From Planctomycetales bacterium (GTDB lineage: Bacteria > Planctomycetota > Planctomycetia > Planctomycetales > Planctomycetaceae): a DNA stretch of 32,622 nt. A program made the translations under genes and the position numbers. Under the pieces are notes generated by a model. The model was not told the origin of the DNA. It was given only the letters and a program-made list of their open reading frames with translations, and did not search any database. The stretch is taken from NCBI GenBank assembly GCA_026400835.1, contig JAPLOA010000052.1, forward strand, positions 1-32,622. The letters are read 5' to 3'. Shown here in pieces: positions 3,347-32,474 of the stretch (position 1 is the stretch's first letter; each line of letters starts with the position of its first letter).

Positions 3347-3396
3347 GCGTTTAGTTCATTGCGGTTGGTGTTGTTGAGTTGTTGTTTTCAGCACAC

Positions 3397-4593: not shown

Positions 4594-5357
4594 GGATTGT
4601 TTCCGCCGCGGATGGATTCGTTGGTGGCGAGGCGGAACAGAACGGCTTGGCCGGTGGTCAGCTCGACGAGGGGCGCGTTCGTATTCTGCACAAATTCATC
4701 GACAGCCTGCCGCGCGCCCGGACAAGTGCGAAAACCATAGTCGTCGCACACAATGATGCCCCCGTTCACCAGTCTCGGGTAAAAGAAGGCCAGCGCATGA
4801 GCAGTCGGTTCGTATAAATCGAGATCAATGTGTGCAAATCGAAAGGGGAACTCCGAGCAAGGTTCGAGCACCTCAGGAATCCAGCCCTGGACTAATTCGC
4901 AGAACGGGAATTCCTTCAGATGTTGTCGGGCCGTCGCGTAATTCGCGGTTAGATCCCCGGAGTTCCAGGCGTCGCCATCTGAGGTAGTCGGTTCTGGCAA
5001 ACCAGCGAACGAATCGAAGGCCCAATGCCGTTCGCCGTCGCTATAGCTGTCGCGGAGAACCTCGCAAATCACAGCCGAACTGACGCCAGTAAAGACTCCG
5101 CACTCGGCAGTCTGTCCGCGGAGACGTAAAACCATTCCGGCGAACTGGGCCAGCGTAAATCGACGATCCAGAATCCGCTTCCAGTCGCCGACCCCCGTCG
5201 GCCCCGCGTCCGGTCGTAGATGCCGCTCGAAGCGACTCAGCCAGCGCTCGTCATTCCACCAGACAACCTTTGGGTTGAATGTTCTCGCAGGTGGCACTGA
5301 TCGACGAAAGAGCCAATTGAGCACGTGAGTCGTATTCCCGGATGTAATGTTGAGCAA
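4590..5357 (-). CDS. TylF/MycF-family O-methyltransferase
   Basis: The 255-residue protein matches the macrocin O-methyltransferase (TylF) family, which methylates sugar hydroxyls using SAM and a metal ion. Visible landmarks are AECGVFTGVSSAVICEVL near residue 85, HIDLDLYEPTAHALAFFYPRL near 175 and GGIIVCDDYGF with the metal-binding acidic pair near 200. The open frame has no ATG at its 5' end. TTG at 5357 is the first candidate and GTG at residue 12 the next, neither with a good ribosome-binding site. It follows the ABC ATPase stop by 13 bases and overlaps the next gene by 4 bases. Confidence 0.85.
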   Translation of the reverse strand: MLNITSGNTTHVLNWLFRRSVPPARTFNPKVVWWNDERWLSRFERHLRPDAGPTGVGDWKRILDRRFTLAQFAGMVLRLRGQTAECGVFTGVSSAVICEVLRDSYSDGERHWAFDSFAGLPEPTTSDGDAWNSGDLTANYATARQHLKEFPFCELVQGWIPEVLEPCSEFPFRFAHIDLDLYEPTAHALAFFYPRLVNGGIIVCDDYGFRTCPGARQAVDEFVQNTNAPLVELTTGQAVLFRLATNESIRGGNNP

Positions 5358-5370
5358 TCGTCTGTTTCAA

Positions 5371-6678
5371 TCATTCGCGGTGCGCTGCGACCGCATGTCC
5401 TGTCATGAATTCGAGTTTGTCCGTGGCGTTCAGCGACAAGATTTCCCAGTGATGTGGTTGATGGACGAGTCCAACCTGCGATGCCGCAATTGGGTCTGGA
5501 GAGACATCGAACTGCGCTTCACCCCAATCCAGAATGTCCAAGACCTCGAATGGAGGGTGCTCCAATCGCAGTTTCAGATCATACGTGCCGTGTGTCAGAC
5601 AACAGGCGTCCCAGATCAACTGGACTTCCGTGGTCAACGAATCGAGGACGAGTTCCCCGAGGCTGTCTTTCGTCAAGAATGCGGCGGACATAAGTTCCGG
5701 TGAATCCACACTACGGATGCCGACGAACAGTGCCAGGTCCTTGCAGCGGATGGGAGCTTGAAGCGTCACGGCGAGCGATGCAGGCTTTCCGGAAATCAGA
5801 CTCGCGAGCGGATGCCCCGCTGGGTCCCTCCACTGAACGTCAACGATTCTTGGACCGTCAAAGGCCTCCCGTCTCCGTTTGAAAGGGAAACTTGCTGTGG
5901 AGCCGACGTTTCCCGACTGAGGAATGTTCGCCTTACGATACTGAGCCAAAGCTGCGCTGATCTCTCCGACAAAGATAGATCGTCCAGCACAGAGAACTAC
6001 GCCACTGTCACAAGTCGCTTTGACCAGTTGCTCGCTGTGCGACACGAGAATTAGTGCCGTGCCGGCCCGCCGGAGTTCGGCGATAACACGATAACACTTC
6101 ATTCGAAACGCCAAATCCCCTACTGCCAGCACTTCGTCAATCAAAAGTATATCGGGCTCCAAGTGGGCTGCGACAGCGAAGCCCAGGCGGACGCGCATCC
6201 CGCTCGAGTAACTCTTGACTGGTGCGTCAATGGCATCCCCGATATCAGCGAAGGCAATGATCTCATCAAGTCGACGGTCTGTCTCGCGTTTCGACATTCC
6301 GAGAATCGCCGCATTGACGTAAATGTTCTCGCGACCGCTCAGTAGCGGATGAAAGCCCGCCCCTAACTCGATAAGTGCGCCCACTCGACCACGGATTCGA
6401 ATGCTGCCCGCATCGGGCTTAATCAGGCCATTCAACATCTTCAAGAGCGTGCTTTTCCCGGCCCCGTTTGCGCCGATAAGCCCGAAACATTCGCCACGAC
6501 GCAGTTCGAACGAAACGTTATTCACTGCCCAGAACTCGCCTGCACGCAGGTCTGGGCCGCCAGATGCCAGACCGCAGAGTGCTCCGGCAATATCCTGCAG
6601 GCCATACCACAGTGATTGCTTCAGATTGCGGCAGAAGCGTTTGGAAACACGGTTGACTTCAACGAGTACATCGCTCAC
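5371..6678 (-). CDS. Polysaccharide ABC exporter ATP-binding protein (Wzt-like)
   Basis: This is the ATPase of an ABC exporter for surface polysaccharide, 435 residues from the chosen start. Walker A (GANGAGKST) is at residues 69-77, the signature is YSSGM, Walker B is DILLIDE and the H-loop is LVSHS. The RVGALIELGAGFHPLLSGRENI stretch is typical of KpsT/Wzt proteins. Residues from about 255 on form a beta-rich extension like the glycan-binding C-terminal domain of Wzt, which recognises the capped end of the chain. The frame stays open 49 codons further upstream, but GTG at 6678 is the start. It has GGAGGA just ahead and lies 11 bases after the permease stop, while the extension reads as non-conserved antisense to the permease. 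Confidence 0.92.
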   Translation of the reverse strand: MSDVLVEVNRVSKRFCRNLKQSLWYGLQDIAGALCGLASGGPDLRAGEFWAVNNVSFELRRGECFGLIGANGAGKSTLLKMLNGLIKPDAGSIRIRGRVGALIELGAGFHPLLSGRENIYVNAAILGMSKRETDRRLDEIIAFADIGDAIDAPVKSYSSGMRVRLGFAVAAHLEPDILLIDEVLAVGDLAFRMKCYRVIAELRRAGTALILVSHSEQLVKATCDSGVVLCAGRSIFVGEISAALAQYRKANIPQSGNVGSTASFPFKRRREAFDGPRIVDVQWRDPAGHPLASLISGKPASLAVTLQAPIRCKDLALFVGIRSVDSPELMSAAFLTKDSLGELVLDSLTTEVQLIWDACCLTHGTYDLKLRLEHPPFEVLDILDWGEAQFDVSPDPIAASQVGLVHQPHHWEILSLNATDKLEFMTGHAVAAHRE

Positions 6679-7670: not shown

Positions 7671-8640
7671 GCAGATGAATCGCCCCCACAAGGTTCTCCT
7701 CGTTATCAAGAACTGGAAGAACCGTGACGGAGTTGGCTTTCATGACGTCGAGCGCTTCGCATGCCAGCCGATCCTGAGTAATCGTTTTGGCCTCAGTTGT
7801 CATTACATCTGAGACGAGCAGATTCAGGGGATTTGGATTCGCCTGAAGCAGTCTTCTCAAATCGCCATCGGTAAAAATTCCCAGCAATCGACCAGACTCA
7901 TTCGTGATGAATGTTGCCCCAAGTCTTTTGCGGGAGACTTCAAGCAAAGCTTCACTTACGACAGCAGTTTGTGGGACCAAGGGTATCTCGGAACCAGAAT
8001 GCATCAACTCGGATATCCGCCACAGGAGTCGTCTCCCCAGCAATCCTGCCGGATGTAGTTTAGAAAAGTCCTGCTTGCTAAAGCTTCGGCCTTTCATCAG
8101 CGCTATCGCGAAGGCATCACCCAATGCCAGCATCGCAGTGGTGCTCGATGTCGGCAGACAGTCAAGCGGATCCGCCTCTTCGGGAACATTCAGTTCCACA
8201 ACGATGCCAGAGAGCCTCCCAATTGTTGACTGATTTGATCGGGTCACAGCAAGCACCGGCATCCCTCGTCGCCTTACCGCAGCAACGACATCAGTTACTT
8301 CGTCAGTCTCTCCACTAACGCTTAATGCAAGCAGAACATCGAGATCGGACACGCTGCCAAGGTCTCCGTGACAGGCTTCGGCCGGATGAAGAAAGAATGA
8401 CGGCGTGCCACTGCTGGAAAACGTTGCGGATATTTTGCGCCCGACCAATCCAGCTTTTCCCATGCCCGTTACGACAACATGCCCTCTGCAGTTCTTCAGT
8501 AGGTCAAATGCATCCACAATCCGTTCGTTCAACGTACTTTCGACTTGCTCGATTGCACGCCTTTCAGCAGCAAGCACTGTTTGAATATCACCAAGAACCT
8601 GTTTGCGGTGAGCCTCAGCGACTGTTAACTGCTCTAACAC
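7642..8640 (-). CDS. kdsD: Arabinose-5-phosphate isomerase, SIS plus paired CBS domains
   Basis: The 332-residue protein is a KdsD/KpsF-type D-arabinose 5-phosphate isomerase, which converts D-ribulose 5-phosphate to D-arabinose 5-phosphate, the first step of KDO synthesis. The SIS domain spans roughly residues 35-180 (VVVTGMGKAGLVGRK, HPAEACHGDLG, SVSGETDE). Two CBS modules fill residues 205-330 and probably sense nucleotide or sugar phosphate. The start is GTG with GGTGAG just before it. It lies 66 bases downstream of kdsB on the same strand, so the two KDO genes are probably co-transcribed with the exporter. Length is normal for the family. Confidence 0.93.
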   Translation of the reverse strand: MLEQLTVAEAHRKQVLGDIQTVLAAERRAIEQVESTLNERIVDAFDLLKNCRGHVVVTGMGKAGLVGRKISATFSSSGTPSFFLHPAEACHGDLGSVSDLDVLLALSVSGETDEVTDVVAAVRRRGMPVLAVTRSNQSTIGRLSGIVVELNVPEEADPLDCLPTSSTTAMLALGDAFAIALMKGRSFSKQDFSKLHPAGLLGRRLLWRISELMHSGSEIPLVPQTAVVSEALLEVSRKRLGATFITNESGRLLGIFTDGDLRRLLQANPNPLNLLVSDVMTTEAKTITQDRLACEALDVMKANSVTVLPVLDNEENLVGAIHLHDLTRAGFR

Positions 8641-8706
8641 ATCTCACCCAGTCGTGGAGGCCTCTTGAAGAACTGCTGCACACGTGATTTCAATAACCAA
8701 ACTCGG

Positions 8707-9444
8707 TCACCACTGGACGTTGTTTCGTATCATGTAGTCTTCAGCAGTCGTCAGTTCCTCCGGCGTGTTGACTTCGAGCAGCGGCCAGTCTATCAGTGAA
8801 ACGTGAATGGAATGGCCATGTTCGAGGACACGCAATTGTTCGAGGGACTCGCACTGTTCCAGCGGGGTCGGCGCAAGGCCGGAGTACCGCTGCAGGAACG
8901 ATGCCCGAAATGCGTAAAGACCCAGATGATGATAAACCGGTACATCCAGCTGGTTCCGAAAGAAGGGAAGTGCAGCTCGAGAAAAATACAGAGCCCTGCC
9001 TCGCTGGTCGCATACGACTTTAACACAGTTGCAGTCGGCGCGATTGCTTTCTGATGCAAATGGACACGCAATGGTACTCATGTCAGGAGGAAGTGCTTCA
9101 CGGAATGGCTGGATAAGCGAATCAAGAACTGCGCTGTGGATCATCGGCTGATCGCCCTGAACATTGACCACAACTTCAGCATCCGGATAGTGTTTGGCAA
9201 CCTCAGCAACTCGATCCGTGCCAGTCGCGTGATCTCGGGAGGTCATCACAACGCTACCGCCAAAGTCCGCAACTGCTCTAGCGATCCGCTCATCATCTGT
9301 GGCGACCACAACAACATCGAGTGAAACGCACAATTTCGTACGCTCGTACACCCATTGAATCATTGGTTTTCCACACAACAATGCCAATGGCTTACCAGGA
9401 AATCGAGTCGAATCGTATCGCGCTGGAATCACAGCAAGGATCAT
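8707..9444 (-). CDS. kdsB: 3-deoxy-manno-octulosonate cytidylyltransferase (CMP-KDO synthetase)
   Basis: The 245-residue enzyme activates KDO with CTP to give CMP-KDO. The nucleotide-binding N-terminus is MILAVIPARYDSTRFPGKPL, the metal-binding motif is VNVQGDQP, and HHLGLYAF and EQLRVLE match the family. ATG at 9444 gives the normal KdsB length and places the conserved motif at the N-terminus. The open frame continues 84 codons further upstream, but that part is the out-of-frame debris of a dead ABC ATPase and is not part of KdsB. Together with kdsD it shows that the cell makes KDO for a lipopolysaccharide core or a capsule linker. Confidence 0.94.
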   Translation of the reverse strand: MILAVIPARYDSTRFPGKPLALLCGKPMIQWVYERTKLCVSLDVVVVATDDERIARAVADFGGSVVMTSRDHATGTDRVAEVAKHYPDAEVVVNVQGDQPMIHSAVLDSLIQPFREALPPDMSTIACPFASESNRADCNCVKVVCDQRGRALYFSRAALPFFRNQLDVPVYHHLGLYAFRASFLQRYSGLAPTPLEQCESLEQLRVLEHGHSIHVSLIDWPLLEVNTPEELTTAEDYMIRNNVQW

Positions 9445-18194: not shown

Positions 18195-19316
18195 TTATTT
18201 TGTATGAGCACTCTGCTCATACAGCTGATCAAAAATCCCGCCTTCCACAAAGAACATCGCGTTGGCCTCCTCCCAGTCGGTGGCGAAATCGGAGATTGTG
18301 AAGGTCTTAAGTTCTGGGAATGTGGATTGGAATTTCTTGCGAACCTCTTCCTTTGCCGGGCGAAAATAATTGCTTGCAATAATCTGCTGCCCCTCGTCAG
18401 TGTACAGAAACTGCAAATAGGCCTGCGCGACACCTCGAGTCCCCCGAGCGTCAACCACATTGTCCACGATTGCGATATGCGGCTCATGGATGATGCTGAC
18501 CGGCGGGTACACGATTTCCAGCTGACCGGACGATTCTCTTACTTCCAGCATTGCTTCATTCTCCAACGCCAGATGAACGTCACCGACGCCTTTCTGAGCA
18601 AACGTGGTTGTGGCCCCACGAGCTCCCGCATCCAGCACGGGCACCCGTCGATAAAGCTCTGTCACAAGTTTTCGGGCGTCATCCTGCGATCCGCCAGTGG
18701 AAATCACACTTCCCCACGCAGCCAGGAAGCTCAATTTGCCATTTCCAGAAGTGCGTGGGCTGGGGGTGATGATTTGCGTGTCGCCTTTGATCAAGTCCGG
18801 CCAATCTTTCAGATTCTTTGGATTTCCTTTGCGAGTCACAAAAACAATCGTGGACGTGTAAGGGAGCGAGCGGTCGGGGAATGTTTCTTCCCATCGTTCT
18901 TTGATCAGTCCAGCTTTCTGCAGAGAATTCGTATCCGACCAAATTGAGAGCGTCGCGACATCAGCCTCCAGCCCATCGATGATCGCCCGTGCCTGACTGC
19001 CGGACGAGCCGTGAGACTGCTTGATACTGACTTTAATCCCGGTTTCTTTCTCGTACGCAGGGATGAATGCGTTGTTGATTTCTTTCCACAATTCACGTGT
19101 CGGATCATACGACACGTTCAAAAGGGTGATCTCCTGTGGTGCGGGGGGCGTTTCACCCGTTGAGATTGATGGATCAGGTTCCTTCGCACATCCGAATATC
19201 ACCGCAACGAGAAGCACAACAACCCATGGCCGATGCACCAGGTTGCCCAACTGCCGAATAGGTCTGCAGATTGAGGCATGCTCGGTGCCTGGAGCCGATT
19301 TGTAGATCTGCTTCAT
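18195..19316 (-). CDS. Sulfate-binding lipoprotein of an ABC importer (copy 1)
   Basis: The 373-residue protein belongs to the sulfate/thiosulfate-binding (Sbp/CysP) family. Landmarks are LLNVSYDPTRELWKEINNAF, SIKQSHGSSGSQARAI, LPYTSTIVFVTRKGNPKNLKDW, TSGNGKLSFLAAWGS and GARGATTTFAQKGVGDVHLALENE. Instead of a free periplasmic signal it has a lipobox (VVVLLVAVIFGC), so it is probably membrane-anchored. ATG at 19316 precedes a basic region and this signal; the frame is open to a TTG at 19364. It lies 105 bases downstream of cysE, apart from the permease genes, and is a diverged paralog of the protein at 25237-26292. Confidence 0.9.
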   Translation of the reverse strand: MKQIYKSAPGTEHASICRPIRQLGNLVHRPWVVVLLVAVIFGCAKEPDPSISTGETPPAPQEITLLNVSYDPTRELWKEINNAFIPAYEKETGIKVSIKQSHGSSGSQARAIIDGLEADVATLSIWSDTNSLQKAGLIKERWEETFPDRSLPYTSTIVFVTRKGNPKNLKDWPDLIKGDTQIITPSPRTSGNGKLSFLAAWGSVISTGGSQDDARKLVTELYRRVPVLDAGARGATTTFAQKGVGDVHLALENEAMLEVRESSGQLEIVYPPVSIIHEPHIAIVDNVVDARGTRGVAQAYLQFLYTDEGQQIIASNYFRPAKEEVRKKFQSTFPELKTFTISDFATDWEEANAMFFVEGGIFDQLYEQSAHTK

Positions 19317-19421
19317 AGAAAGTGACGATCTCAAGTGGTTGATCTGGACACTCGCCCCCGCCAAAAAAATGGCTGAGTATTTGGCTGGTATTGTCCGAGG
19401 AGGAACTGAGAGGCTGAAACG

Positions 19422-20378
19422 CTAGATGCCCGCCCCACTATTGAACACTTCGTTCTGATGCTTGGCCTGAGTGATATTGCTGTCCGGTGGCACGCTCCGA
19501 GTCAGCCAGACGTTACCACCGATGACCGATCGGGCTCCAATCGTGATCCTTCCCAGAATCGTGGCTCCGGCGTAAATCACCACGTCATGCTCAACGATGG
19601 GATGTCGCTCCTTACCCTTCAACAACGCGCCGTTTTCGTCGACCGGGAATCGTTTGGCTCCCAGTGTAACAGCCTGATACACACGAACTCGATCTCCTAC
19701 AACGGCTGTTTCCCCAATGACCACACCAGTGCCATGGTCAATAAAGAAACTCTGGCCAATCGTTGCACCGGGATGAATATCAATGCCGGTCAGCGAATGA
19801 GCAATCTCCGCGATAATGCGCGCGACCAACGGTGCTCCCAGTCGGTGCAGAAGATTGGCCATGCGATGATGCAGAATTGCCGTCATCCCGGGATAACACA
19901 CCAAAACTTCATCTGCACTCCGTGCGGCCGGATCGCCTTCGTACGCCGCCTGAATATCTGTCTCAAGCGTCTGTCGAATCTGGGGCAAATGTGCAGCAAA
20001 GTGACGAGTAATCTCCGTGGCCTTCTGACGATTGTCGTCCGGCGTCGGTGAGTATCGTTCAGCGAAGATCATCTCCAGGGCGATCTGCTCGTCCAGATGT
20101 CGCAGAGCCTTTTCGAGCGTATGTCCGACGAAGTAGTCGATGCTCTCCTGAACAACGTCATGTCCTCCCAGTCGATTCGGAAACAACGCAGCTCCGAGAT
20201 CTTCCACGACTCCGGCCAACACTTTGCGGGATGGCAGTTTGATGGGCTTCCCGGCTCGTTGACGAGTTGCCAGTGACTCTTCGCGTAACGCTCGCAGTTC
20301 GGCAACAATTTCGCGAGTCTCCCAACGCTTGCTTTGGGGAGGGGGACAGCAGGATACTGGTTGTTCTTTGCTGTTCAT
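19422..20378 (-). CDS. cysE: Serine O-acetyltransferase (EpsC/CysE type)
   Basis: The 318-residue enzyme makes O-acetylserine from serine and acetyl-CoA, the first committed step of cysteine synthesis. The C-terminal left-handed beta helix carries the catalytic pair D214-H215 ([19 protein letters not shown]) and the second histidine H259 ([20 protein letters not shown]). The long N-terminal helical domain (about residues 50-180) fits the EpsC subgroup. Its ATG overlaps the cysK stop by 4 bases (ATGA), so the two enzymes of the pathway are translationally coupled. The C-terminus (VFNSGAGI) ends in isoleucine, as required in known CysE tails that dock into CysK. Confidence 0.93.
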
Positions 20379-21349
20379 CGGGCTTTGCCTTCCGCGTCGA
20401 AAACACCTTCGAACAGGATCGAGCTGAGGTACCGCTCACCAGAGTCAGGAAGCACGACAACGATCGTTTTGCCTTTGTTTTCCGGGCGTTTGGCGACTCG
20501 AATGGCCGCGACTGTTGCCGCTCCACAGGAGATACCACAAAGAATTCCTTCTTCCTGAGCGATTCGTCGTGCCATCAGCACCGCGTCTTCATTGCTGACC
20601 TGTTCGATTTCGTCGACTACCGACAGGTCCAGCACTTCAGGAACAAAACCGGCTCCGATACCCTGAATCTTATGGGGCGCTGGTTTGAGTGGCTCACCGT
20701 TTCTTTTCTGAGTCAACACGGGGCTCGCGGACGGCTCCACGGCGACTGAACGAACGCTGCTCTTTTTCTTTTTCAGATAACGTGACACTCCCGTGATGGT
20801 TCCGCCAGTGCCAACTCCACCAACAAAGATGTCAACGAGTCCATCCGTGTCTTCCCAGATTTCTGGTCCGGTCGTCTCTTCATGGATTGCGGCATTCGCG
20901 GGATTCTTGAACTGCTGGAGCAGAACGTACTTTCCCGGATCAGAGGCGTAGATTTCTTCTGCCTTGTTCACGGCGCCGGTCATTCCTTTGGGCCCTTCGG
21001 TGAGCACCAGTTTTGCTCCAAAGGCCAACAGCAACTTTCTTCGCTCGATGCTCATCGTCTCCGGCATCGTCAGTGTCAGAGGGATGCTTTTCGCCGCAGC
21101 CACGAATGCCAGGGCGATGCCCGTATTACCGCTGGTAGGTTCGACCAGTTCTTTGCCTGGTCCGAGCAATCCCTTTTTCTCAGCGTCCCAGATCATGGCG
21201 GCGCCCAGACGGCACTTGACTGAGTACGCTGGATTTCGTCCCTCGATTTTTGCCAGCACTGTGGCGGGGGCGCCATCGATCACGTGGTTCAATCGAACGA
21301 GCGGCGTACGACCGATGGAAAGAGAATTATCAGCAAACCAGCGTGGCAT
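20375..21349 (-). CDS. cysK: Cysteine synthase A (O-acetylserine sulfhydrylase)
   Basis: The PLP enzyme converts O-acetylserine and sulfide to cysteine; it is 324 residues from the chosen start. The PLP lysine is in [11 protein letters not shown] (K45 from this start). [10 protein letters not shown] is the substrate loop, [15 protein letters not shown] the phosphate-binding glycine loop and [10 protein letters not shown] the C-terminal motif. ATG at 21349 gives the usual N-terminus [18 protein letters not shown]; an in-frame TTG four codons earlier is less likely. An intrinsic terminator ends 29 bases before this ATG, which implies control by read-through. The gene overlaps cysE by 4 bases. 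Confidence 0.94.
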
Positions 21350-21378
21350 AGGAAGGTCCAAATTGAAAAGTACAAACG

Positions 21379-21416
21379 AAAAAAGGCCGCTGCGTTTTGA
21401 ATAAAACGCAACGGCC
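21379..21416 (-). terminator. Intrinsic terminator in the cysK leader
   Basis: On the minus strand a 14-bp stem with one mismatch (ggccgttgcgtttt / aaaacgcagcggcc, 4-base loop) is followed by six T residues. It lies 146 bases after the cysA stop and only 29 bases before the cysK ATG. It may end the cysTWA transcript, or act as an attenuator for cysKE if transcription starts upstream of it. Confidence 0.85.
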
Positions 21417-21510
21417 TCCGAGTTTTTCGGTCAGCGGTATTGTTAAGGAATTTACAGGGATCACAGGTCTGACGTCAACATGGGTTGTGTCGTGAGTTTT
21501 AATGGCTTGG

Positions 21511-21550
21511 GATTTCGAATTTGAAATTTGAGATACGAAATCTCGAATTC
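21511..21550. repeat. AT-rich palindrome (family copy 2)
   Basis: Arms gatttcg and cgaaatc enclose aatttgaaatttgagata, and a second overlapping hairpin is gagatacgaaatctc. The core matches the repeat at 15193-15230. It sits just after the cysA stop, between cysA and cysK. Confidence 0.65.
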
Positions 21551-21562
21551 CGCGCGTAGAAA

Positions 21563-22624
21563 TCAAATCACGTAATCTGCCTCCGGCATAAAGACGCGGA
21601 CTGATCGAGGATGCACGTAGACAATATCGTTGAGTTTCAGCTCCAACTGTTTGGCTCGATAATGCGTCACATCGACGTTCAGCTCAACGCCAAACTCTTC
21701 GACGGCGACTCGAACCTTCAGCACCGAACCAGCCGGATTAATCTGCTTGATTTTTCCCAGCAGTGATGCCTGTGAAGGTGATCGATCGATGTCCAGCTCG
21801 TGAGGTCTCACATAGGCGGTTGCATTCCGTGGCTCCTCATGCTGGTACTCATCGTACTGCAGACTGAACGGCCCCATCTGAACTCGCCCCGATTGAACTC
21901 GCCCGTGAAACACATTCACGTTACCCAGAAAATCCATGACGAAAGATGTGGCCGGATTATCGAAGACGGCCTGAGGTGTCCCGGTCTGCTCGATATGTCC
22001 CTGACTCATGACCACAACCTGATCAGCCATTTCAAAGGCCTCCTCCTGGTCGTGCGTCACGAATACCGTTGTCACATGCATTTCTTCATGCAGTTTTCGC
22101 AACCATGTTCGCAGTTCCTGTCGCACCTTGGCATCCAGCGCGCCAAACGGTTCATCGAGTAACAGCATGCGAGGTTTGACTGCAAGTGCCCGTGCGAGAG
22201 CGACGCGTTGACGCTGCCCACCGGAAAGTTCGGAAGGATACCGCTGGCCTAGTCCTTCGAGTCGCACAAGATGCAGCAGCTCGTTGACGCGTTCGCGAAC
22301 TTCATTATTCGGAGCATTGCGAACTCGCATTCCGAATGCAACGTTCTCAAACACAGTCATGTGACGAAACAGTGCGTAGTGCTGAAAGACGAAACCCACT
22401 TCTCTATCGCGGGCCGAGCGAGTCGTTACGTCTTCATCTTTGAACAGAATGCTGCCCTCATCAGCACTTTCCAGCCCGGAGATGATTCGCAGCAGAGTCG
22501 TCTTGCCCGAACCTGATGGTCCCAGCAATGCGGTCAGACTGTCTGAGGGGACTTCCAGACTGACGTTCTTCAAAGCGACGAAATCACCGAATCGCTTCGA
22601 AAGATTTTGAACTGAGATACTCAT
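21563..22624 (-). CDS. cysA: Sulfate/thiosulfate importer ATP-binding protein
   Basis: The 353-residue ATPase of the sulfate ABC importer has Walker [10 protein letters not shown] at residues 35-43, the Q-loop FVFQHYALF, the signature [15 protein letters not shown], Walker [13 protein letters not shown] and the switch histidine VFVTHDQ. A C-terminal TOBE-type regulatory domain (about residues 240-353) includes [13 protein letters not shown], characteristic of CysA. It lies 61 bases downstream of cysW on the same strand. Length is normal. Confidence 0.95.
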
Positions 22625-22628
22625 GGGA

Positions 22629-22649
22629 ATTACCTGACAGTGGGGTAAT
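22629..22649. promoter_or_regulatory. Inverted repeat ahead of cysA
   Basis: Perfect 6-bp arms attacc and ggtaat are separated by nine bases, directly before the cysA start and over its ribosome-binding region. Its agtggggtaatg half resembles the motif at 18138. It might be a regulator site or a translational hairpin; the evidence is only the symmetry. Confidence 0.3.
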
Positions 22650-22685
22650 GAATCGCAGTTTTAAACCTGAGCTAAAACCTCAGTG

Positions 22686-23567
22686 CTACTCTGCTGAACT
22701 CTGCTCCATCGATGCGGCGACCATTCGTTCCAGAATGATCTTCAGCACCAGTGTCGAAAGAGCCATCAAGGTCAGGACTGACGCAACCGCATAGGAGCCG
22801 GGGTTGTTGTAATCCTGAAAGAGCTTTTCGACTCGCAGAGCCATCGTGTAGGTTTCTCGTTCAATGCGGCCGGAAACGACATAGACCGCTCCGAATTCGC
22901 CAATCGCACGAGCATTGCACTGGATCACTCCGAACAACAGGCCCCATTTGATATTCGGCAAAGTGACTCGCCAGAAGATCTGCCATGGCGATGCACCCAG
23001 ACTGACGGCGGCCAGTTCTTCGTCATCACCCAGAGCCTGCATCAGAGGAATCAATTCGCGAGCCACAAATGGGATGGTCACAAACATCGTGGCCATCACG
23101 AGGCCAGGCCAGGCAAAGATCACCTTGAGTCCGATCGCATTCAGCATCGGAGCGAAGTAACCGGTTCGCAGGTTGTACAACAACACGAACATCAAGCCGG
23201 CTACGACCGGTGAAACGGCAAATGGCAGATCGAGTGCCGTCATCAACAGTGTTCGACCAGGAAACTTGAACTTGGTCAGGGTCCACGCAGCGGCAACTCC
23301 GCAAACGGTGTTCACCAACACCGCGAGCGGCACCACAATCAGCGTCAGAAAAACGGAATGTCGCGTTTCCGCGTCATTGAAAAGGTTATTCCACCAGCCG
23401 GAAATGCCCTCAGAAAATGCCTGCACGAAGACATAAATCAGGGGCACAATAATCAGGACACTGGCAATCAAATAGCAAAGCGAGATCAGCAGAATGCGAA
23501 ACCACAGCGGTTCGTTCGCCACCATCTTGCCTGCGGTCTTCTGCGTTCTGACGGAGTTAACGTGCAT
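22686..23567 (-). CDS. cysW: Sulfate ABC importer permease CysW
   Basis: The 293-residue permease has six predicted membrane spans and the EAA-type cytoplasmic loop (LAAVSLGASPWQIFWRVTLPNIKWGLLFG). AIGEFGAVYVVSGRI is typical of CysW. It forms the importer channel with CysT. ATG at 23567 has AAGGA upstream and overlaps the cysT end by 11 bases; the frame is open to a TTG at 23588. The upstream extension has no conserved residues. Confidence 0.94.
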   Translation of the reverse strand: MHVNSVRTQKTAGKMVANEPLWFRILLISLCYLIASVLIIVPLIYVFVQAFSEGISGWWNNLFNDAETRHSVFLTLIVVPLAVLVNTVCGVAAAWTLTKFKFPGRTLLMTALDLPFAVSPVVAGLMFVLLYNLRTGYFAPMLNAIGLKVIFAWPGLVMATMFVTIPFVARELIPLMQALGDDEELAAVSLGASPWQIFWRVTLPNIKWGLLFGVIQCNARAIGEFGAVYVVSGRIERETYTMALRVEKLFQDYNNPGSYAVASVLTLMALSTLVLKIILERMVAASMEQSSAE

Positions 23568-24438
23568 AGCGGCGATTCCTTGCTTCAAGCCAGTTAATCA
23601 GCATCAGAGTGGTAATCGATCCGGCCAGCAGAACGACCGCAATCGCGGTGGCTTCTTCGTACTTGTAGTCTTCCAGCCGCGAGTAGATCAGCATCGGAGC
23701 GATCTCGGACTTGAACGGGATATTCGTCGAGACAAAGATGATCGAGCCGTACTCGCCCAGTCCGCGAGCAAACGCGAGGGCGAATCCGGTGTAGAGTGCT
23801 GGCATCAGAGACGGCAGGATGACTCGCATAAACGTCTGCCAGCGAGAAGCTCCCAGTGATGCAGCGGCTTCCTCAATATCACCTTCGAGACTCGACAAAA
23901 GTGGCTGCACTGTTCGTACGACAAACGGCAGTCCCAGAAAGACCAGAACCAGCACGATGGCAAATCGCGAGTACGCGCCTTCAATTCCCAGCGGCACCAG
24001 AAACTGGCCGAACCAGCCGTTCTTCACATAGAGACTGGAATAAACCAGCCCGGCTACGGCTGTCGGCAAGGCGAAGGGAAGGTCGACAATCGCATCGAGC
24101 ATCTGACGACCCGGAAAACGATATCGCACAATGACCCATGCGAACAGGAGGCCAAGTATAACGTCAACGACAGCAGCGATGGCTGCCGCTCCGAACGTCA
24201 GAGTATAGGCGGCTCGAGCACGATCCGACCAGGCCGCTGCCAGAAACTCCGAAGGCGTCAGAGAAATCGACTTGGCAATCAAGGCTATCAGGGGAACAAA
24301 CAGCATGACGGTCAGCCAGCTGATCGTCACGGCTAACCCCGGCCCAAATCCTGGCAACGGGCTGCGATGTTTTCCTGAGACAAGTCGTCTCAGAGTACCC
24401 CCGAGAGATTGATTGGGGGAAGGTTTAGCGGCACTCAC
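23557..24438 (-). CDS. cysT: Sulfate ABC importer permease CysT (CysU)
   Basis: The 293-residue permease has six hydrophobic spans and an EAA loop (EAAASLGASRWQTFMRVILPSLMPAL). LGEYGSIIFVSTNIPFKSEIAPMLI is the CysT-specific end of that loop. GTG at 24438 is chosen because AGGAG lies seven bases upstream; the open frame runs 26 codons further back without a plausible protein sequence. It is the first of the three transporter genes cysT-cysW-cysA. A large palindrome separates it from yezD. Confidence 0.94.
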   Translation of the reverse strand: MSAAKPSPNQSLGGTLRRLVSGKHRSPLPGFGPGLAVTISWLTVMLFVPLIALIAKSISLTPSEFLAAAWSDRARAAYTLTFGAAAIAAVVDVILGLLFAWVIVRYRFPGRQMLDAIVDLPFALPTAVAGLVYSSLYVKNGWFGQFLVPLGIEGAYSRFAIVLVLVFLGLPFVVRTVQPLLSSLEGDIEEAAASLGASRWQTFMRVILPSLMPALYTGFALAFARGLGEYGSIIFVSTNIPFKSEIAPMLIYSRLEDYKYEEATAIAVVLLAGSITTLMLINWLEARNRRYAR

Positions 24439-24634
24439 GTTGTTCGCTCCTGAAAGATGCGTACATCGTGCGCCAAAATAACGCGGACGCGTTTCTCGTC
24501 GAGAAACTGACTGCAAAAAGTCGCATCTGAACCGGCCCTCGAAGTGGTATCGTCAGGCAAAATTTGATTTGCGGAAAGAAGAGGAGGTCAACTCAATGAA
24601 GCGAAGAAATCTTCACCACTGACTTTACCGGGGC

Positions 24635-24749
24635 GTTGATTTAACGGTTTTTCAAAACCCGAAACGTCAGTGAGGGATTGCAATTTCAGGTTTAAACAGT
24701 TCTCGCCCCAAAATCCCTCGCTCACGCTTCGGGTTATGATTCAATCAAC
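24635..24749. repeat. Large imperfect palindrome (REP-like)
   Basis: Long arms cccgaaacgtcagtgaggga (24658-24677) and its near-complement at 24714-24733 face each other across a loop containing caggtttaaac. The outermost bases are gttgattta and tcaatcaac. On the minus strand the stem is followed by TTTTGAAAAA, so it could also terminate yezD transcription. It has no coding content. The gttgattta ends recall the ends of the split palindrome at 13212. Confidence 0.75.
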
Positions 24750-24786
24750 AGTCTGATAAACCCCGATGAAGTCGCTTGTCCAAATA

Positions 24787-25017
24787 CTACTGCGTTGTCT
24801 GCGACGTCTGTCGTTCGTTGCGAGTAATGCGACGGCGTTCGAGACGATCGATCTGCACCACAACTCCGTCCTGAACCACAATCTGCACATGTCCAAAGCG
24901 GAGATTGCGAAGTGATTCTCGAATCTGTGCCAACACCAGGTCTTCTGAATCAGATCGACCGTCTGCTGTGGCATGGTCTTCGGCGGTGTCGCTTTTCTTT
25001 CCCATGACTCTGCTCAT
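24787..25017 (-). CDS. yezD: YezD family protein (DUF2292)
   Basis: The small protein is 76 residues from ATG 25017; GTG at 25026 and ATG at 25005 are alternatives. The conserved stretch is IRESLRNLRFGHVQIVVQDGVVVQIDRLERRRI, which is the YezD/DUF2292 signature (FGxVxIxxxDGxVVQI...). The family is small and without known activity, but its genes often accompany sulfate-assimilation genes. It is encoded between the second sulfate-binding lipoprotein and cysT on the same strand, which supports a role in sulfur metabolism. No signal peptide or membrane span is seen. Confidence 0.85.
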   Translation of the reverse strand: MSRVMGKKSDTAEDHATADGRSDSEDLVLAQIRESLRNLRFGHVQIVVQDGVVVQIDRLERRRITRNERQTSQTTQ

Positions 25018-25236
25018 TTCACTCACGTCAACCGGGGTTACAGTCTTTCACACGGCTTTACGCTCACCGTGCTCGCAACAATGCTGCCCGCGCCGATGAC
25101 GAGAGCATCTCTGCCATGGTTGACGGGCAACCCTGGAATGCAGAAAAAAATTCAGGCACCGAATATCGATTCTCTTGGCCGCCGCCCTGAGCATTCAGGG
25201 CAAGCAGTGTTTGGCAGGCCGGCAGAGCACAAGTCC

Positions 25237-26292
25237 TTATTTCTCGCCGATGTAGATCTTGTCGAACTCAGCACCGTCCTCGAAAAATTTCGCCTGAGCG
25301 TCATCCCAGCTGGCAGCAATTTTTGTCACTGGAAACAGCTCGACCGCTGGAAATGATGCAGCACTGGCAGCCAGGACTTCGGCATTCGATGGTCGATAGA
25401 AGTGCTTCGCGATGACTTCCTGTCCCTCCTTTGTGTACAGGAACTTCAGGTACTCTTCGGCTGTTGCTCGAGTACCCTTCTTGTCCGCGACAGAATCCAC
25501 CACCGCGACATGTGGCTCGGCGAGAATGCTCACTTCAGGAAAGACGAGCTCCAGTTCACCTTTCGCTTCAGCCACTTCAAGATGAGCTTCGTTTTCCCAG
25601 GTCAGATGAACATCACCGATGCCCTTCTGAGCAAATGTTGTTGTGGCTCCACGAGCAGCGGTGTCAAGCACCGGAACCTGCTTATATAGCTGAGTCACGA
25701 AGGCTCGTGCATCGTCTTCACTGCCACCTTTGCTGATCACGCTTCCCCAGGCTGCAAGGAAAGCCAGTTTCCCGTTGCCGGAGGTCTTTGGGTTCGGTGT
25801 AATGATCTCGATACCAGAGGCGGTGAGGTCAGCCCATGATTTGATGTTCTTCGGGTTTCCCTTACGCACGACAAAGACGATCGTTGAGGTGTACGGCAAA
25901 CTACGATTCGGTAACGCATCCTCCCAGCCGTCTTTGATCAATCCCTTCTTGTGCAGTTGCTCTGTGTCAGACCACATTGCCAGCGTCACAACATCCGCCT
26001 CAAGCCCATCGATGACAGCGCGAGCCTGACTGCCGGAACCGCCATGGGACTGTTTGATCGAAACCGTCTTGCCACTGGCTGACTGCTGGGCCGTGAACTT
26101 TTCGTTCAGTTCCTTCCACAGCTCCCGAGTCGGGTCGTAGGACACGTTCAGCAATTCGATGGGAGCCGAGGATCCAGTCGCTGCTGACCCGCCGTTCGTC
26201 GCTGACGACTCTGTGGAGGAGTTGGAGCCGGAACCACATCCGATCGCAGCCAAAAAGAGTGGAAGCAGGAAAACCAGGGAACTCTTCTTCAT
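25237..26292 (-). CDS. Sulfate-binding lipoprotein of an ABC importer (copy 2)
   Basis: The 351-residue Sbp/CysP-family protein has the same landmarks as copy 1 (LLNVSYDPTRELWKELNEKF, SIKQSHGGSGSQARAV, TSGNGKLAFLAAWGS, GARGATTTFAQKGIGDVHLTWENEA). Its signal ends in a lipobox, FLAAIGCGSGS, followed by a Ser/Thr-rich linker, so it is probably lipid-anchored. ATG at 26292 opens the signal (MKKSSLVFLLPLFLAAIGC); earlier in-frame codons are not conserved. It is the second gene of the locus, 70 bases after the Rrf2 regulator. It lies closest to the permease genes and is the more likely main binding protein. Confidence 0.94.
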   Translation of the reverse strand: MKKSSLVFLLPLFLAAIGCGSGSNSSTESSATNGGSAATGSSAPIELLNVSYDPTRELWKELNEKFTAQQSASGKTVSIKQSHGGSGSQARAVIDGLEADVVTLAMWSDTEQLHKKGLIKDGWEDALPNRSLPYTSTIVFVVRKGNPKNIKSWADLTASGIEIITPNPKTSGNGKLAFLAAWGSVISKGGSEDDARAFVTQLYKQVPVLDTAARGATTTFAQKGIGDVHLTWENEAHLEVAEAKGELELVFPEVSILAEPHVAVVDSVADKKGTRATAEEYLKFLYTKEGQEVIAKHFYRPSNAEVLAASAASFPAVELFPVTKIAASWDDAQAKFFEDGAEFDKIYIGEK

Positions 26293-26320
26293 GAAAGTCA
26301 TTCCAAATCCAAAAACAATC

Positions 26321-26337
26321 ATCACTAAATGGGTGAT
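26321..26337. promoter_or_regulatory. Possible operator ahead of sbp copy 2
   Basis: The inverted repeat atcac-n7-gtgat lies 29 bases before the sulfate-binding gene start, immediately downstream of an Rrf2 regulator gene. A 13/17 match occurs at 18138. It could be the regulator's binding site; this rests on position and symmetry only. Confidence 0.35.
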
Positions 26338-26362
26338 AGATAAGAGCAAAAAAGAGAGACTG

Positions 26363-26827
26363 CTAAATGCCATCCCCGTAATTCAACTCCGCAGAGAACA
26401 CTTCTTCCCGGCTTACGATGGCCCCGGCAAACACTGTGGACAGCGTCGCATTATCCATCAGGCGAGCGATATAGTTACGAATATCCAGCATAACGCGGCG
26501 AAAACGGCAGACACCTTCCTGCGAACAGGGTTCATAGTCCGACGTCGAAACGCAGGAAATCGGGGCCAAAATGCCGTCAAAATGACGAACAATCTCGCCC
26601 ATCGTGATTTCTTCCGGCCGCTTCGCCAGTACAAAACCGCCGTCACGTCCCGCGATACTTTCAACCCACCCCCGCGACTTCAGGTCAAGCATAATCTGTT
26701 CGAGAAACCGACGTGGAATGTCGTTTTGTTCGGCCAGTGTTCGAATGGAAATCGGTCCCTGACCGCGATAAGCCACCAAGCTGAACAAAGCTCGCAGTGC
26801 ATAATCTGATTTTCTGGAGAGCTTCAT
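26363..26827 (-). CDS. Rrf2-family regulator with cluster-type cysteines
   Basis: The 154-residue protein begins MKLSRKSDYALRALFSLVAY, the canonical Rrf2 N-terminus. The helix-turn-helix is ISIRTLAEQNDIPRRFLEQIMLDLKSRGWVES, followed by the wing GRDGGFVLAKRPEEITMGEI. Three cysteines at 92, 101 and 107 (C-x8-C-x5-C) occupy the region where IscR and NsrR bind an iron-sulfur cluster, although the spacing differs from IscR (C92, C98, C104). Standing at the head of the sulfate genes, it is likely a sulfur- or cysteine-responsive repressor, comparable in role to CymR. The open frame extends seven codons upstream of the chosen ATG. Confidence 0.88.
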   Translation of the reverse strand: MKLSRKSDYALRALFSLVAYRGQGPISIRTLAEQNDIPRRFLEQIMLDLKSRGWVESIAGRDGGFVLAKRPEEITMGEIVRHFDGILAPISCVSTSDYEPCSQEGVCRFRRVMLDIRNYIARLMDNATLSTVFAGAIVSREEVFSAELNYGDGI

Positions 26828-27213
26828 CGACTCAGGGACTCCGGCCACTGGATAAATACCACTCGATTGGTCGTGTTTTATCTTTCAGGCCCGATCGCCG
26901 CAACCAATGAATCAGATTTTCTTGCCGAAGAGGACGGATATTGCCATCTGAGTAACGTTTGGAACCCATCGCATAGATCAGGCGAAGATTCTTGCGGCGG
27001 GCATCAGCTTACTGAGCTCGGCTGGTTCGAACCCATAAGTGCAATTGAACGCAGAGGGTGCAGGGGATCTCAGGGTGCAGTCTTTGGCCGGATTTCCCTG
27101 CGATCCTCCGCGACCTACGCGTACAGAGAATGAGCATTTCAGCGGCGCTTGGAATGATGAGACACAAAGCAAGCGAGACTCGGAGGGCTGACGCCCTGCC
27201 GCTCTCCTTTCGG
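26828..27213. other. Intergenic region with a decayed inverted repeat
   Basis: Between the Rrf2 start and the cysteine-rich gene's stop no convincing gene is seen; an 88-codon plus-strand frame has no recognisable domain. Bases 27049-27075 and 27096-27122 form an imperfect inverted repeat (20 of 27 positions) built on acgcagaggg and gcaggg-type units, like a degraded palindromic repeat. Confidence 0.45.
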
Positions 27214-29885: not shown

Positions 29886-32474
29886 ATGGTCAATACGAAA
29901 TCATTGTTGTTCACGTGTCTGATCTTCTGTCTCATGGCTACGCCGCTGTTGTCGCGCAGCGTGGTTGAAGGGGCGGAGTTGCCCGCAATTAAGGTCAGCA
30001 CAGGTGGAACACACTTTATCAGCGGAGATTCTGGTACGCCGTTTCGGCCGATGGGTTTCAATTACGATCATGATGCTGATGGTCGACTGCTGGAGGACTA
30101 TTGGCATTCAGAATGGGATCGTGTCGAGAACGACTTTCGCGACATGCAAAGTCTCGGCGCGAATGTGGTGCGGATTCATCTGCAGTTCGGCAAGTTCATG
30201 AAGTCGGCCACGGAAGCAAACGCAGAAGAACTGAAACAACTGCAGCGGCTGTTGACTTTGGCCGAAGAAACAAAGCTGTATCTCGATCTGACCGGGCTGG
30301 GTTGTTATCACAAGAAAGATGTCCCCGCATGGTACGACGCGCTGGACGAACAGGCCCGCTGGAATGCTCAACAGGTTTTCTGGGAAGCCGTGGCCACGGT
30401 TTGCAGCGAGCGCTCAGCCGTCTTCTGCTACGACCTGATGAATGAACCAGTAATCGGTGGTGATAAGGCAGGACCTGACTGGTTAGGACCCGCCTTTGCC
30501 GGAAAGCACTTTGTGCAGTTCGTCGCCAAATCCACCAATGGGAGAACTCGCCCTGAGGCCGCCAAACAGTGGATCGATCAGATGGTGAATGCTGTTCGTC
30601 AGCATGACAAGCAACATCTGATCACGGTAGGCTTTGTCGACTGGAGTCTGGACCGTCCCGGCCTGACGTCGGGATTCGATCCGCTGAAAGTTGCCGAGAA
30701 CCTGGATTTTCTGGCCGTGCACATTTATCCCGCCACGGGCAAAGTTGATGAAGCTCTGGAGACGTTAAAGGGATTCCAAATCGGCAAGCCGGTGATCGTC
30801 GAAGAGACATTCCCACTGAAGTGTTCTCATGATGAGATGAAAGACTTCATGGATCGCAGTGGCGATCACGCCGACGGCTGGATCAGTTTCTTCTGGGGCA
30901 AAATGCCGGACGAATATCAACCGACGACCTCTGTTGGCGATGCGATCATTTCACAGTGGCTGACTCAGTTTTCTGCGATAATGAAAGTGCAGAAGCCACA
31001 AGCAGCCACAACATCCGCTGATGATTACGATGATGAAACCGAGGCTGTTATTGCAGCGTTCGTTCAGCACACGCAGGGAAACTCGGATGGCCGAGCAGCC
31101 TTCTCTGTGGATCTGAAAGCGTGGTCTGACGAAAACAGTGACCTGCCAATCGGAGTCTTCGATTCGGGCATCGGCGGATTAACGGTCCAGGAGGCGATCT
31201 ACTCTCTGGATGCCTTCGATAACAAGAACTACTCACCCAAGCCTGACGGAAAGAAAGACTTCGCAAACGAACGGTTTATCTATTTCGGCGATCAGGCCAA
31301 CATGCCTTATGGAAATTACCCGGCAGTAGAACGCCAGACTTATCTGAAGGAATTGATCCTGAAGGACGCCGCCTTTCTGCTGGGCCGTCGCTATTGGAAT
31401 TCGACGAAGGACCAGGAACCGAAATTCGACAAGCCTCCGGTCAAAGCCATCGTCATCGCTTGTAACACGGCCACGGCCTGGGGACTTGATGAGATTCGTC
31501 AGGTGGTCGAGGCATGGAAAGTTCCGGTCTTTGTGATTGGAGTTGTTGAAGCCGGTGCTCGCGGGTTAACGGAGTCGATTGAAACGGCTACGGAGAAACG
31601 CACCGTCGCGGTTCTGGCCACCGTCGGAACCTGCAGCAGCAATGCTTATCCGAAAGCGATCGGTCGAAGTACCGGGTTGGCGGGCAAACGCGTGCCCGAC
31701 GTTGTCCAACAGGGTTCAGCAGGACTGGCGGCGGCCATCGAAGGCGACCCGGCGTTTGTCGTTTCGCCGGAAGCTGGCCTGTCAAATGCTGGCGTCTACA
31801 ACGGCCCATCAATCGATCACAAAACTGCCATCATTGATCCCGAGCTACTTGATGTCTACGGCTTTAATCCGATGGGACTCCGGGGAGATCTCTCATCGCC
31901 GAAATCGTTGAGGCTCAACTCTGTCGAGAATTATGTTCGCTACGACGTGGCGACACTTGTTCGTACTCACCAGAAATCCGGACAGACATCGCCGATTGAT
32001 ACGGTCGTGCTTGGATGCACTCATTTTCCACTTGTTCGACAGGAGATTCTCGACAGCTTTGCTCGCCTTCGAGCTTACGAGAAAGATGGTGAACGTCCCT
32101 TTGCAAATCTGATCGCGGAGAAGATCGCCGTTGTTGACCCTGCCGAACTCACAGCCAAAGAACTCTTTCGGGAACTCGCGCGGCGCAAGTTGTTTCGGAA
32201 GACATCGGGAGAGTCGGATTCGCAAAAATCAGCCGCGGCCCGAGATCAGTTCTATATCTCCATCGCCAATCCAAAGTCTGCTGGTGTTGTCCTGAGTCCA
32301 GACGGATCGTTGGATCGCGAGTACAAATATGGTCGCAGTCCGGGGCGACTGGAAATCGAGGACACAATCTGTGTGCCGATGACTCAGGATCGTCTTCCGT
32401 CCACGAGCCTGAATCTGATCCGCACGAAGTTGCCTTCCGTGTGGCAGCGGCTGAATCGATCGAGTAATCCGTGA
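29886..32474 (+). CDS. Exported GH5-like glycosidase fused to a glutamate-racemase-like domain
   Basis: The 862-residue protein has a Sec signal (residues 1-31, cut likely after VVEGA) and two catalytic domains. Residues 35-365 resemble a GH5/clan-A (beta/alpha)8 glycosidase: GANVVRIHLQFGKF, the acid/base E187 in DLMNEP and a nucleophile candidate E306/E307 in PVIVEETF. An acidic linker (about 366-418) leads to residues 421-830, an enlarged Asp/Glu racemase: GVFDSGIGGLTV (D426), YFGDQANMPYG, ACNTATAW (C526) and VVLGCTHFPLV (C711). Both catalytic cysteines of MurI are present. The spacing between them is 185 residues, against roughly 110 in ordinary MurI, so one or more insertions lie in between. 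The frame is continuous. A wall- or glycan-related job outside the cytoplasm is likely. The pairing is unusual and the substrate unknown. Confidence 0.85.
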   Translation: MVNTKSLLFTCLIFCLMATPLLSRSVVEGAELPAIKVSTGGTHFISGDSGTPFRPMGFNYDHDADGRLLEDYWHSEWDRVENDFRDMQSLGANVVRIHLQFGKFMKSATEANAEELKQLQRLLTLAEETKLYLDLTGLGCYHKKDVPAWYDALDEQARWNAQQVFWEAVATVCSERSAVFCYDLMNEPVIGGDKAGPDWLGPAFAGKHFVQFVAKSTNGRTRPEAAKQWIDQMVNAVRQHDKQHLITVGFVDWSLDRPGLTSGFDPLKVAENLDFLAVHIYPATGKVDEALETLKGFQIGKPVIVEETFPLKCSHDEMKDFMDRSGDHADGWISFFWGKMPDEYQPTTSVGDAIISQWLTQFSAIMKVQKPQAATTSADDYDDETEAVIAAFVQHTQGNSDGRAAFSVDLKAWSDENSDLPIGVFDSGIGGLTVQEAIYSLDAFDNKNYSPKPDGKKDFANERFIYFGDQANMPYGNYPAVERQTYLKELILKDAAFLLGRRYWNSTKDQEPKFDKPPVKAIVIACNTATAWGLDEIRQVVEAWKVPVFVIGVVEAGARGLTESIETATEKRTVAVLATVGTCSSNAYPKAIGRSTGLAGKRVPDVVQQGSAGLAAAIEGDPAFVVSPEAGLSNAGVYNGPSIDHKTAIIDPELLDVYGFNPMGLRGDLSSPKSLRLNSVENYVRYDVATLVRTHQKSGQTSPIDTVVLGCTHFPLVRQEILDSFARLRAYEKDGERPFANLIAEKIAVVDPAELTAKELFRELARRKLFRKTSGESDSQKSAAARDQFYISIANPKSAGVVLSPDGSLDREYKYGRSPGRLEIEDTICVPMTQDRLPSTSLNLIRTKLPSVWQRLNRSSNP

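Follow-up and report, generated by a model that had tools for sequence, protein, structure and literature searches.

Why would a bacterium join a racemase resembling MurI, which is regarded as a cytoplasmic enzyme of wall synthesis and a drug target, to a glycosidase in one protein with a predicted export signal? The question is raised by an open reading frame (ORF) near the end of contig JAPLOA010000052.1 of a Planctomycetales bacterium (assembly GCA_026400835.1), of which positions 1 to 32,622, a stretch of 32,622 nucleotides, were analyzed and are called the window here. An original prediction, made from the letters, had described the product as a signal peptide, a glycosidase barrel and a glutamate-racemase-like domain. 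Our preferred answer, to which we give about an even chance, is that the racemase half is an extracytoplasmic glutamate racemase for scavenging D-glutamate (D-Glu), fused in one genus to a secreted glycosidase of family 5 (GH5). The gene structure, conservation, clade, catalytic residues and predicted racemase fold were computed; the substrate, direction and role of the racemase, and its coupling to the GH5, we infer.

The frame reads as had been claimed, through leader, GH5 and racemase without a stop, and both Pfam domains exceed their gathering cut-offs: Cellulase/GH5 over residues 67-286 (52.3 bits against 23.5) and Asp_Glu_race (PF01177), with its best stretch at 516-610 (47.6 bits against 31). 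For residues 420-593, NCBIfam models for glutamate racemase give matches (E 9.4e-26 and 7.1e-25) that lie far under their curated cut-offs; for TIGR00067 the cut-off is 146.65 bits, and the protein reaches 87.9 bits and the best genomic stretch 59.8 bits. Sequence matches to the fusion protein in the PDB comprise 24 distinct entries, 23 glutamate racemases and one GH5 (CelA). The two MurI cysteines that had been pointed out are both present, in ACNTATA and GCTHFPL, and C526 and C711 are common to canonical MurI. Table 1 gives the positions of these and the other features.

Table 1. Features of the fusion ORF, in window coordinates; residue numbers are those of its product
Feature	Window positions	Strand	Remark
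Complete fusion frame, 862 aa, free of internal stops	29886..32474	+	Recurs full-length in one frame in the genus
Predicted signal peptide, residues ~1-31	29886..29978	+	Hydrophobic segment by heuristic
GH5 glycosidase domain, residues 34-365	29985..30980	+	Pfam PF00150, E 7.6e-14
NEP motif (186-188), candidate GH5 acid/base E187	30441..30449	+	Invariant in 20 rows of alignment A4
E306-E307, candidate GH5 nucleophile	30801..30806	+	Invariant in 20 rows of A4
Linker (~366-383) and former N-terminal arm of mature racemase (~384-418)	30981..31139	+	
Long-form MurI-like racemase domain, residues 419-862	31140..32471	+	Profiles, AF2, Foldseek, tree
D426-S427-G428	31161..31169	+	Kept in long-form and canonical MurI rows
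ACNTATA (525-531), first catalytic cysteine C526	31458..31478	+	Invariant in 27 rows of alignment A3
GCTHFPL (710-716), second catalytic cysteine C711	32013..32033	+	GCTH invariant in 27 rows of A3
KYGR (814-817), clade-specific C-terminal motif	32325..32336	+	Alignment of long-form against canonical rows

Could the pairing be an accident of assembly, as the original prediction had itself allowed? The fusion recurs, full-length and in one frame, at 11 loci in nine genomes of the genus, the window genome included, and the copies in other members have 54-87% identity to that of the window. G003 and G008 each hold two copies with equal scores, which may be near-duplicates, and the copy in G015 (L003) is interrupted by a contig end; L003 and both G008 copies were excluded from alignment A1. 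In G001, of the same genus, the parts are separate: a contig end cuts off all but the first portion of an unfused racemase that bears a leader-like N-terminus of its own, and a GH5 frame of 389 aa lies elsewhere in the genome. In the closest pair, the window and L002 (G004), the ratio of nonsynonymous to synonymous substitution rates (dN/dS) is 0.07 in the GH5 and 0.12 in the racemase; it rises to 0.46 over the linker region, taken as the 50 residues ahead of the core, and to 1.29 over the leader (residues 1-28). Three further pairs have 0.08-0.10 in the GH5 and 0.12-0.13 in the racemase. Both domains of the fusion are under purifying selection. The full-length fusion in nine genomes and the low dN/dS values rule out an assembly error or a pair of genes and leave an artifact or a decayed passenger domain a negligible chance, in favor of which stands nothing beyond the GH5 half lacking a confident model.

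What kind of racemase, then, does the C-terminal half represent? With MurI (TIGR00067; 1zuw, 5hj7), it shares the motifs DSG, PYG, CNT and CTH of a two-cysteine chemistry independent of pyridoxal phosphate (PLP), and the same predicted fold. An AlphaFold2 (AF2) model of the domain, made with 27 alignment rows, has predicted local distance difference test (pLDDT) values mostly above 90, and Foldseek returns MurI for it (best 5hj7_B, E 6.5e-16, template modeling (TM) score 0.72 by target length). Unlike MurI, which is cytoplasmic and single-domain, the fusion racemase is predicted to be exported, is fused to a GH5, scores under the family cut-off, carries long insertions (about 430 aa against about 260; the racemase half as a whole has about 440 aa), possesses the KYGR motif and falls in a clade of its own.

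That clade emerged from a comparison of long-form rows (L078-L104) with canonical MurI rows (L105-L157), classes that were set by length and identity among the best 80 of 585 relatives, where near kin of the window may be missing. L102, which is cut, was excluded from alignments A2 and A3, the tree and the count of MurI co-occurrence. A tree of 93 rows separates 44 long-form and fusion racemases from 49 canonical ones with support of 100/100, the fusion racemase falling outside the canonical rows; several long branches are flagged in it, and 4 of the 53 canonical loci were excluded. The nine fusions form one group (96/83), and beside it (97/82) stand three rows from Verrucomicrobiota and one, G410, from the window's phylum. 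Judged by sequence, the racemase half belongs to a long-form, exported-looking clade that is separate from canonical MurI. Members are found in Bacteroidota, Verrucomicrobiota, Planctomycetota, Acidobacteriota and other phyla, and the distribution is patchy: 8 of 395 Bacteroidota genomes match at E <=1e-40, one of which supplied a row of the search model; in the window's phylum, 17 of 392 genomes match at E 1e-3, strongly so solely in G000, G418 and G410. A plasmid search with the racemase of L085 gave no match at E 1e-20. Residues D426, S427, P474, Y475, G476, C526, N527, T528, C711, T712 and H713, which belong to the catalytic and substrate-contact set of MurI, are each retained by 85% or more of the rows in both the long-form and the canonical class. 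K814 and R817, in contrast, occur in all 44 long-form and fusion rows and are a gap in all 49 canonical ones.

The prediction of export does not depend on the fusion. By a home-made hydrophobicity rule, with lipoboxes called by the script's pattern, 33 of 36 long-form loci have a leader-like N-terminus, 13 of these with a lipobox; the misses are L093, whose 5' end is cut, and L082 and L083, in which the N-terminus is hydrophobic and lacks a suitably placed ATG. Eight of 10 fusions pass (L007 lies marginally under the threshold, and L008 starts with GTG), as does one of the 49 canonical MurI proteins that could be parsed from the 53 loci. When the canonical MurI of long-form genomes is read more crudely from stop to stop, 3 of 16 pass the threshold (L185, L186 and L191), and in L186, the hydrophobic stretch precedes the probable start. 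The single canonical exception, L150 (1185-2822, + strand), from a Tissierellia metagenome-assembled genome, is a fusion in which an Rce1-like (CAAX protease) membrane domain precedes a MurI of canonical type.

On its N-terminus, the fusion protein is probably secreted. Because the parent family of the racemase already looks exported, export would not have been created by the fusion; of the earlier picture of an exported racemase tied to a glycosidase, the predicted export and the tie itself stand. Moreover, because the arm before the racemase core resembles, by eye, the mature N-terminus of the standalone L079, L080 and L178, the fusion looks like a GH5 plus a racemase minus its signal peptide. 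It would represent a mature racemase joined behind a secreted GH5, in one genus.

What such an exported racemase might do is suggested by the company it keeps. Ordinary MurI above cut-off is present in 22 of 26 long-form genomes (in one, G443, with an internal stop), which makes the exported form an additional enzyme in most of them. Salvage-type neighbors occur at 10 of 36 long-form loci and at 0 of 53 canonical ones, a comparison that is descriptive because the class was picked after the loci had been inspected. D-aminoacylase-type genes lie at +/-1 in five of the 36 (six genes: L082, L085 on both sides, L098, L104 and L166), in 0 of the 53 canonical loci (Fisher 0.009), which are mostly Bacillota and not taxon-matched, and in 0 of 20 canonical MurI loci of the same genomes, a matched control that covers 20 of 22 possible genomes with flanks of about 5 kb or less and an N-terminus parsed in 16 of the 20. 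In 11 of the 53 canonical loci and in long-form L081, no center gene was called, and the scan of these covered their ORFs without distances. Counted by genes, chance would give about 0.006 such adjacencies in 12 genomes, on the assumption of one gene per kb and with the 12, out of those of the 36 loci, chosen to include all five positives. The L082 protein, the only one compared, has D-aminoacylase (1m7j) and N-acyl-D-glutamate deacylase (3gip) as its nearest solved relatives; this group of enzymes resembles the neighbors of several long-form racemases and is a partner gene in other organisms, not part of the fusion.

Other neighbors are of related kinds. NagK-like, AmpG-like and GH3/beta-lactamase genes accompany the racemase in L171, and NagK-like and AmpG-like genes do so in L168; L172 has AmpG-like and GH3/beta-lactamase genes 5-6 genes off, and a GH3/beta-lactamase match nine ORFs away in L099 was excluded from the count. 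L091 has the order SusC-SusD-racemase-Na+/glutamate symporter, and in L083, 36 bp upstream of the racemase, lies a peptidase C26 gene whose product has an N-terminus that looks, by eye, like that of a lipoprotein. We regard D-Glu salvage as the best-supported role, about as apt to prove right as wrong. As separate observations on these clusters, that of L171 contains a fusion of GH3 with a beta-lactamase fold (2859-5735, + strand), and upstream of the L166 racemase lies a beta-lactamase-fold gene (7866-8897, - strand) whose best NCBIfam match, 3-succinylated cholic acid synthase, is well under cut-off.

Several observations weigh against salvage of D-Glu. First, 26 of the 36 long-form loci have none of the scored salvage neighbors, and the ten positives are partly dependent, L085 and L166 being close on the tree. 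Second, the NCBIfam matches for D-aminoacylase, AmpG and NagK fall under curated cut-offs, with the Pfam family cut-offs reached, and SusD does not discriminate, since 2 of 20 matched controls (L189 and L193) are positive for it. Third, relatives of D-aminoacylase can act on sugars, as described for PpOngB (9kb1; PMC12017989). Fourth, the window fusion itself has as its neighbors an oppositely oriented porin gene and the contig end, and the single D-aminoacylase-type match of the window genome sits on a different contig; around the fusions of genus relatives, mostly 1.5-kb flanks were covered. Finally, residues close to the active site are altered in the clade: DTAR has become DQAN, A replaces P556 and, in 29 of 44 rows, D replaces E619; the fusion rows retain E619.

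Because of these substitutions and the long insertions, the substrate may differ. The long-form clade would then act on aspartate, on peptide- or gamma-linked D-Glu or on another acid, the MurI scaffold having been recruited for a new extracytoplasmic isomerization. The new KYGR motif, the failure to reach any glutamate-racemase equivalog cut-off and the peptide and amide hydrolases among the neighbors are all consistent with this alternative. It is opposed by the conservation, save at E619, of the MurI catalytic and contact residues and by the glutamate symporter adjoining one locus, and we consider it unlikely, if still a serious contender.

Export, as predicted by the hydrophobicity rule, would also suit an enzyme that produces extracellular D-amino acids for peptidoglycan modification or as signals, as BsrV does in Vibrio cholerae. 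Enzymes of the MurI type have a narrow substrate range, and BsrV, BsrF and Alr of Pseudomonas putida are PLP-dependent, with a fold different from that of MurI. An alanine-racemase fold with PLP was not found in the racemase half, where Asp_Glu_race is the sole Pfam family and the predicted fold is that of MurI. The informative neighbors, too, are genes of degradation and uptake, not transpeptidases. Production of D-amino acids is improbable in our judgment, even with the precedent of periplasmic broad-spectrum racemases that modify peptidoglycan or signal via D-amino acids in other bacteria (PMC12502697). What BsrV, BsrF and P. putida Alr would have in common with the fusion is extracytoplasmic racemization of amino acids, and the periplasmic, PLP-type P. 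putida enzyme offers the salvage reading a precedent for a catabolic role, in the L-to-D direction there (PMC6034422).

Might the fusion itself provide the D-Glu that peptidoglycan synthesis needs in the window genome? This genome (99.99% complete) has no other TIGR00067 or PF01177 match at E 1, and it holds MurD above cut-off. Across 59 genomes, TIGR00067 matches 10, every one at fusion loci, and the other 49, none of which carries a complete fusion, have no match, in a search that missed the cut racemase fragments of G001 and G011. DapF is above cut-off in 29 of 30 genomes, the window's included, and has been proposed as a D-Glu maker in MurI-less bacteria of the Planctomycetes-Verrucomicrobia-Chlamydiae (PVC) group (PMC5885031). 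Aminotransferases related to D-amino-acid transaminase occur in all 30, under the model cut-off. In Vibrio fischeri, the periplasmic racemase BsrF relieved D-Glu auxotrophy once its secretion signal had been lost in a suppressor (PMC12502697). Because the product of an exported racemase would have to be taken up before it could serve MurD in the cytoplasm, and DapF is a proposed source, supply for wall synthesis is unlikely, and we rate it as very improbable that the fusion is the D-Glu source of this genome; as the sole supplier, too, it was judged unlikely. In the same survey, eight of the 30 genomes (G037, G038 and G042-G047, of the same class) have no MurD match at E 1e-10, and all eight have DapF.

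As for the GH5 half, a search of the 59 genomes with the fusion protein found matches in 40; beyond the genus, these occur in 24 of 41 genomes and cover the GH5 half alone, mostly at 41-60% identity and weakly in G048, and several of the GH5 matches were given no locus. By these comparisons, the GH5 half derives from a GH5 that is common as a single gene in relatives. The NEP and EE residues that had been proposed for catalysis bear up well: R96, H142, N186, E187, H279, Y281, E306, E307 and W337 do not vary across the 20 rows of A4, among which is the window and from which L014 was excluded for its internal stops. E187 is the candidate acid/base and E306-E307 the candidate nucleophile. A GH5 profile run against solved sequences matched three, the beta-mannanases 3ziz and 1qno and the putative beta-xylosidase 9ku5, all very distant from the fusion GH5 (E 1.3e-8 to 5.6e-7). 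The original prediction had called for structure prediction to see whether both active sites form: the racemase is predicted to fold as MurI, and the GH5 half, modeled in AF2 without homologues, has low confidence (pLDDT 42.5 when folded alone). None of these observations ties the GH5 to peptidoglycan, and the earlier suggestion of wall turnover coupled to isomerization gains no support from them. A pattern search of viral contigs for GH5 homologues gave 55 matches and no relative among them. At four loci, L013 (1495-3309, + strand), L019, L021 and L023, the same GH5 is followed by a different C-terminal region in frames of about 640-650 aa; in L013, the sole one of the four scanned, Pfam finds GH5 and nothing else.

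Ten ORFs of the window were scanned and include sulfate-type ATP-binding cassette (ABC) transporter genes and the porin, with no link to the fusion seen among them. The transporter genes lie at 18195-26848, together with a PALP-family enzyme and, on the opposite strand, an Rrf2 regulator. The window also encodes a DUF1559 protein, which points to a planctomycete lineage. Elsewhere in the genus, the C-terminal part of gyrA lies downstream of the fusion in L005 and L007, and dnaN does so in L004, so that in some genomes the fusion may have replication genes close by. The idea of a connection with DNA gyrase was dropped, as the protein is predicted to be exported and the neighbor in L004 is dnaN.

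Under the salvage reading, the gene product would be a secreted two-enzyme protein; in its C-terminal half, it would carry a glutamate racemase that works outside the cytoplasm, needs no cofactor and uses the two-cysteine chemistry of MurI. D-Glu freed outside the cytoplasm, from peptidoglycan peptides or from N-acyl-D-Glu, would be converted to L-glutamate, which ordinary transporters would then import. Because racemization is reversible, the net flow would be set by the uptake of L-glutamate. Fusion behind a secreted GH5 would lead to co-export and perhaps to co-localization on the digested glycan. In a related setting, the accessible part of a deep-sea metatranscriptome study reports active glutamate-racemase genes alongside peptidoglycan-degradation genes, and export of the racemase is not stated there (PMC11044484). 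None of the titles and abstracts returned by searches of open-access papers (subscription papers not covered) describes an exported MurI-type racemase, a clade of this type or a GH5-racemase fusion, in keeping with the earlier remark that no described system with this pairing was known to its author; what appears new is an exported variant of a MurI-like racemase with a genus-specific GH5 fusion.

More broadly, and more tentatively, since we hold it somewhat less probable than not, the long-form clade may consist of undescribed extracytoplasmic, cofactor-independent glutamate racemases that supply central metabolism, in several phyla, with D-Glu derived from wall debris or N-acyl-D-Glu, the GH5 fusion being a specialized form that isomerizes glutamate freed from, or attached to, the cut glycan. 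If salvage is the true role, MurI chemistry would have a degradative use outside the cytoplasm, in a D-Glu recycling route of genomes that mostly retain an ordinary MurI. It would also call for caution in annotating such genes as MurI, above all in the MurI-less relatives of the window genome.

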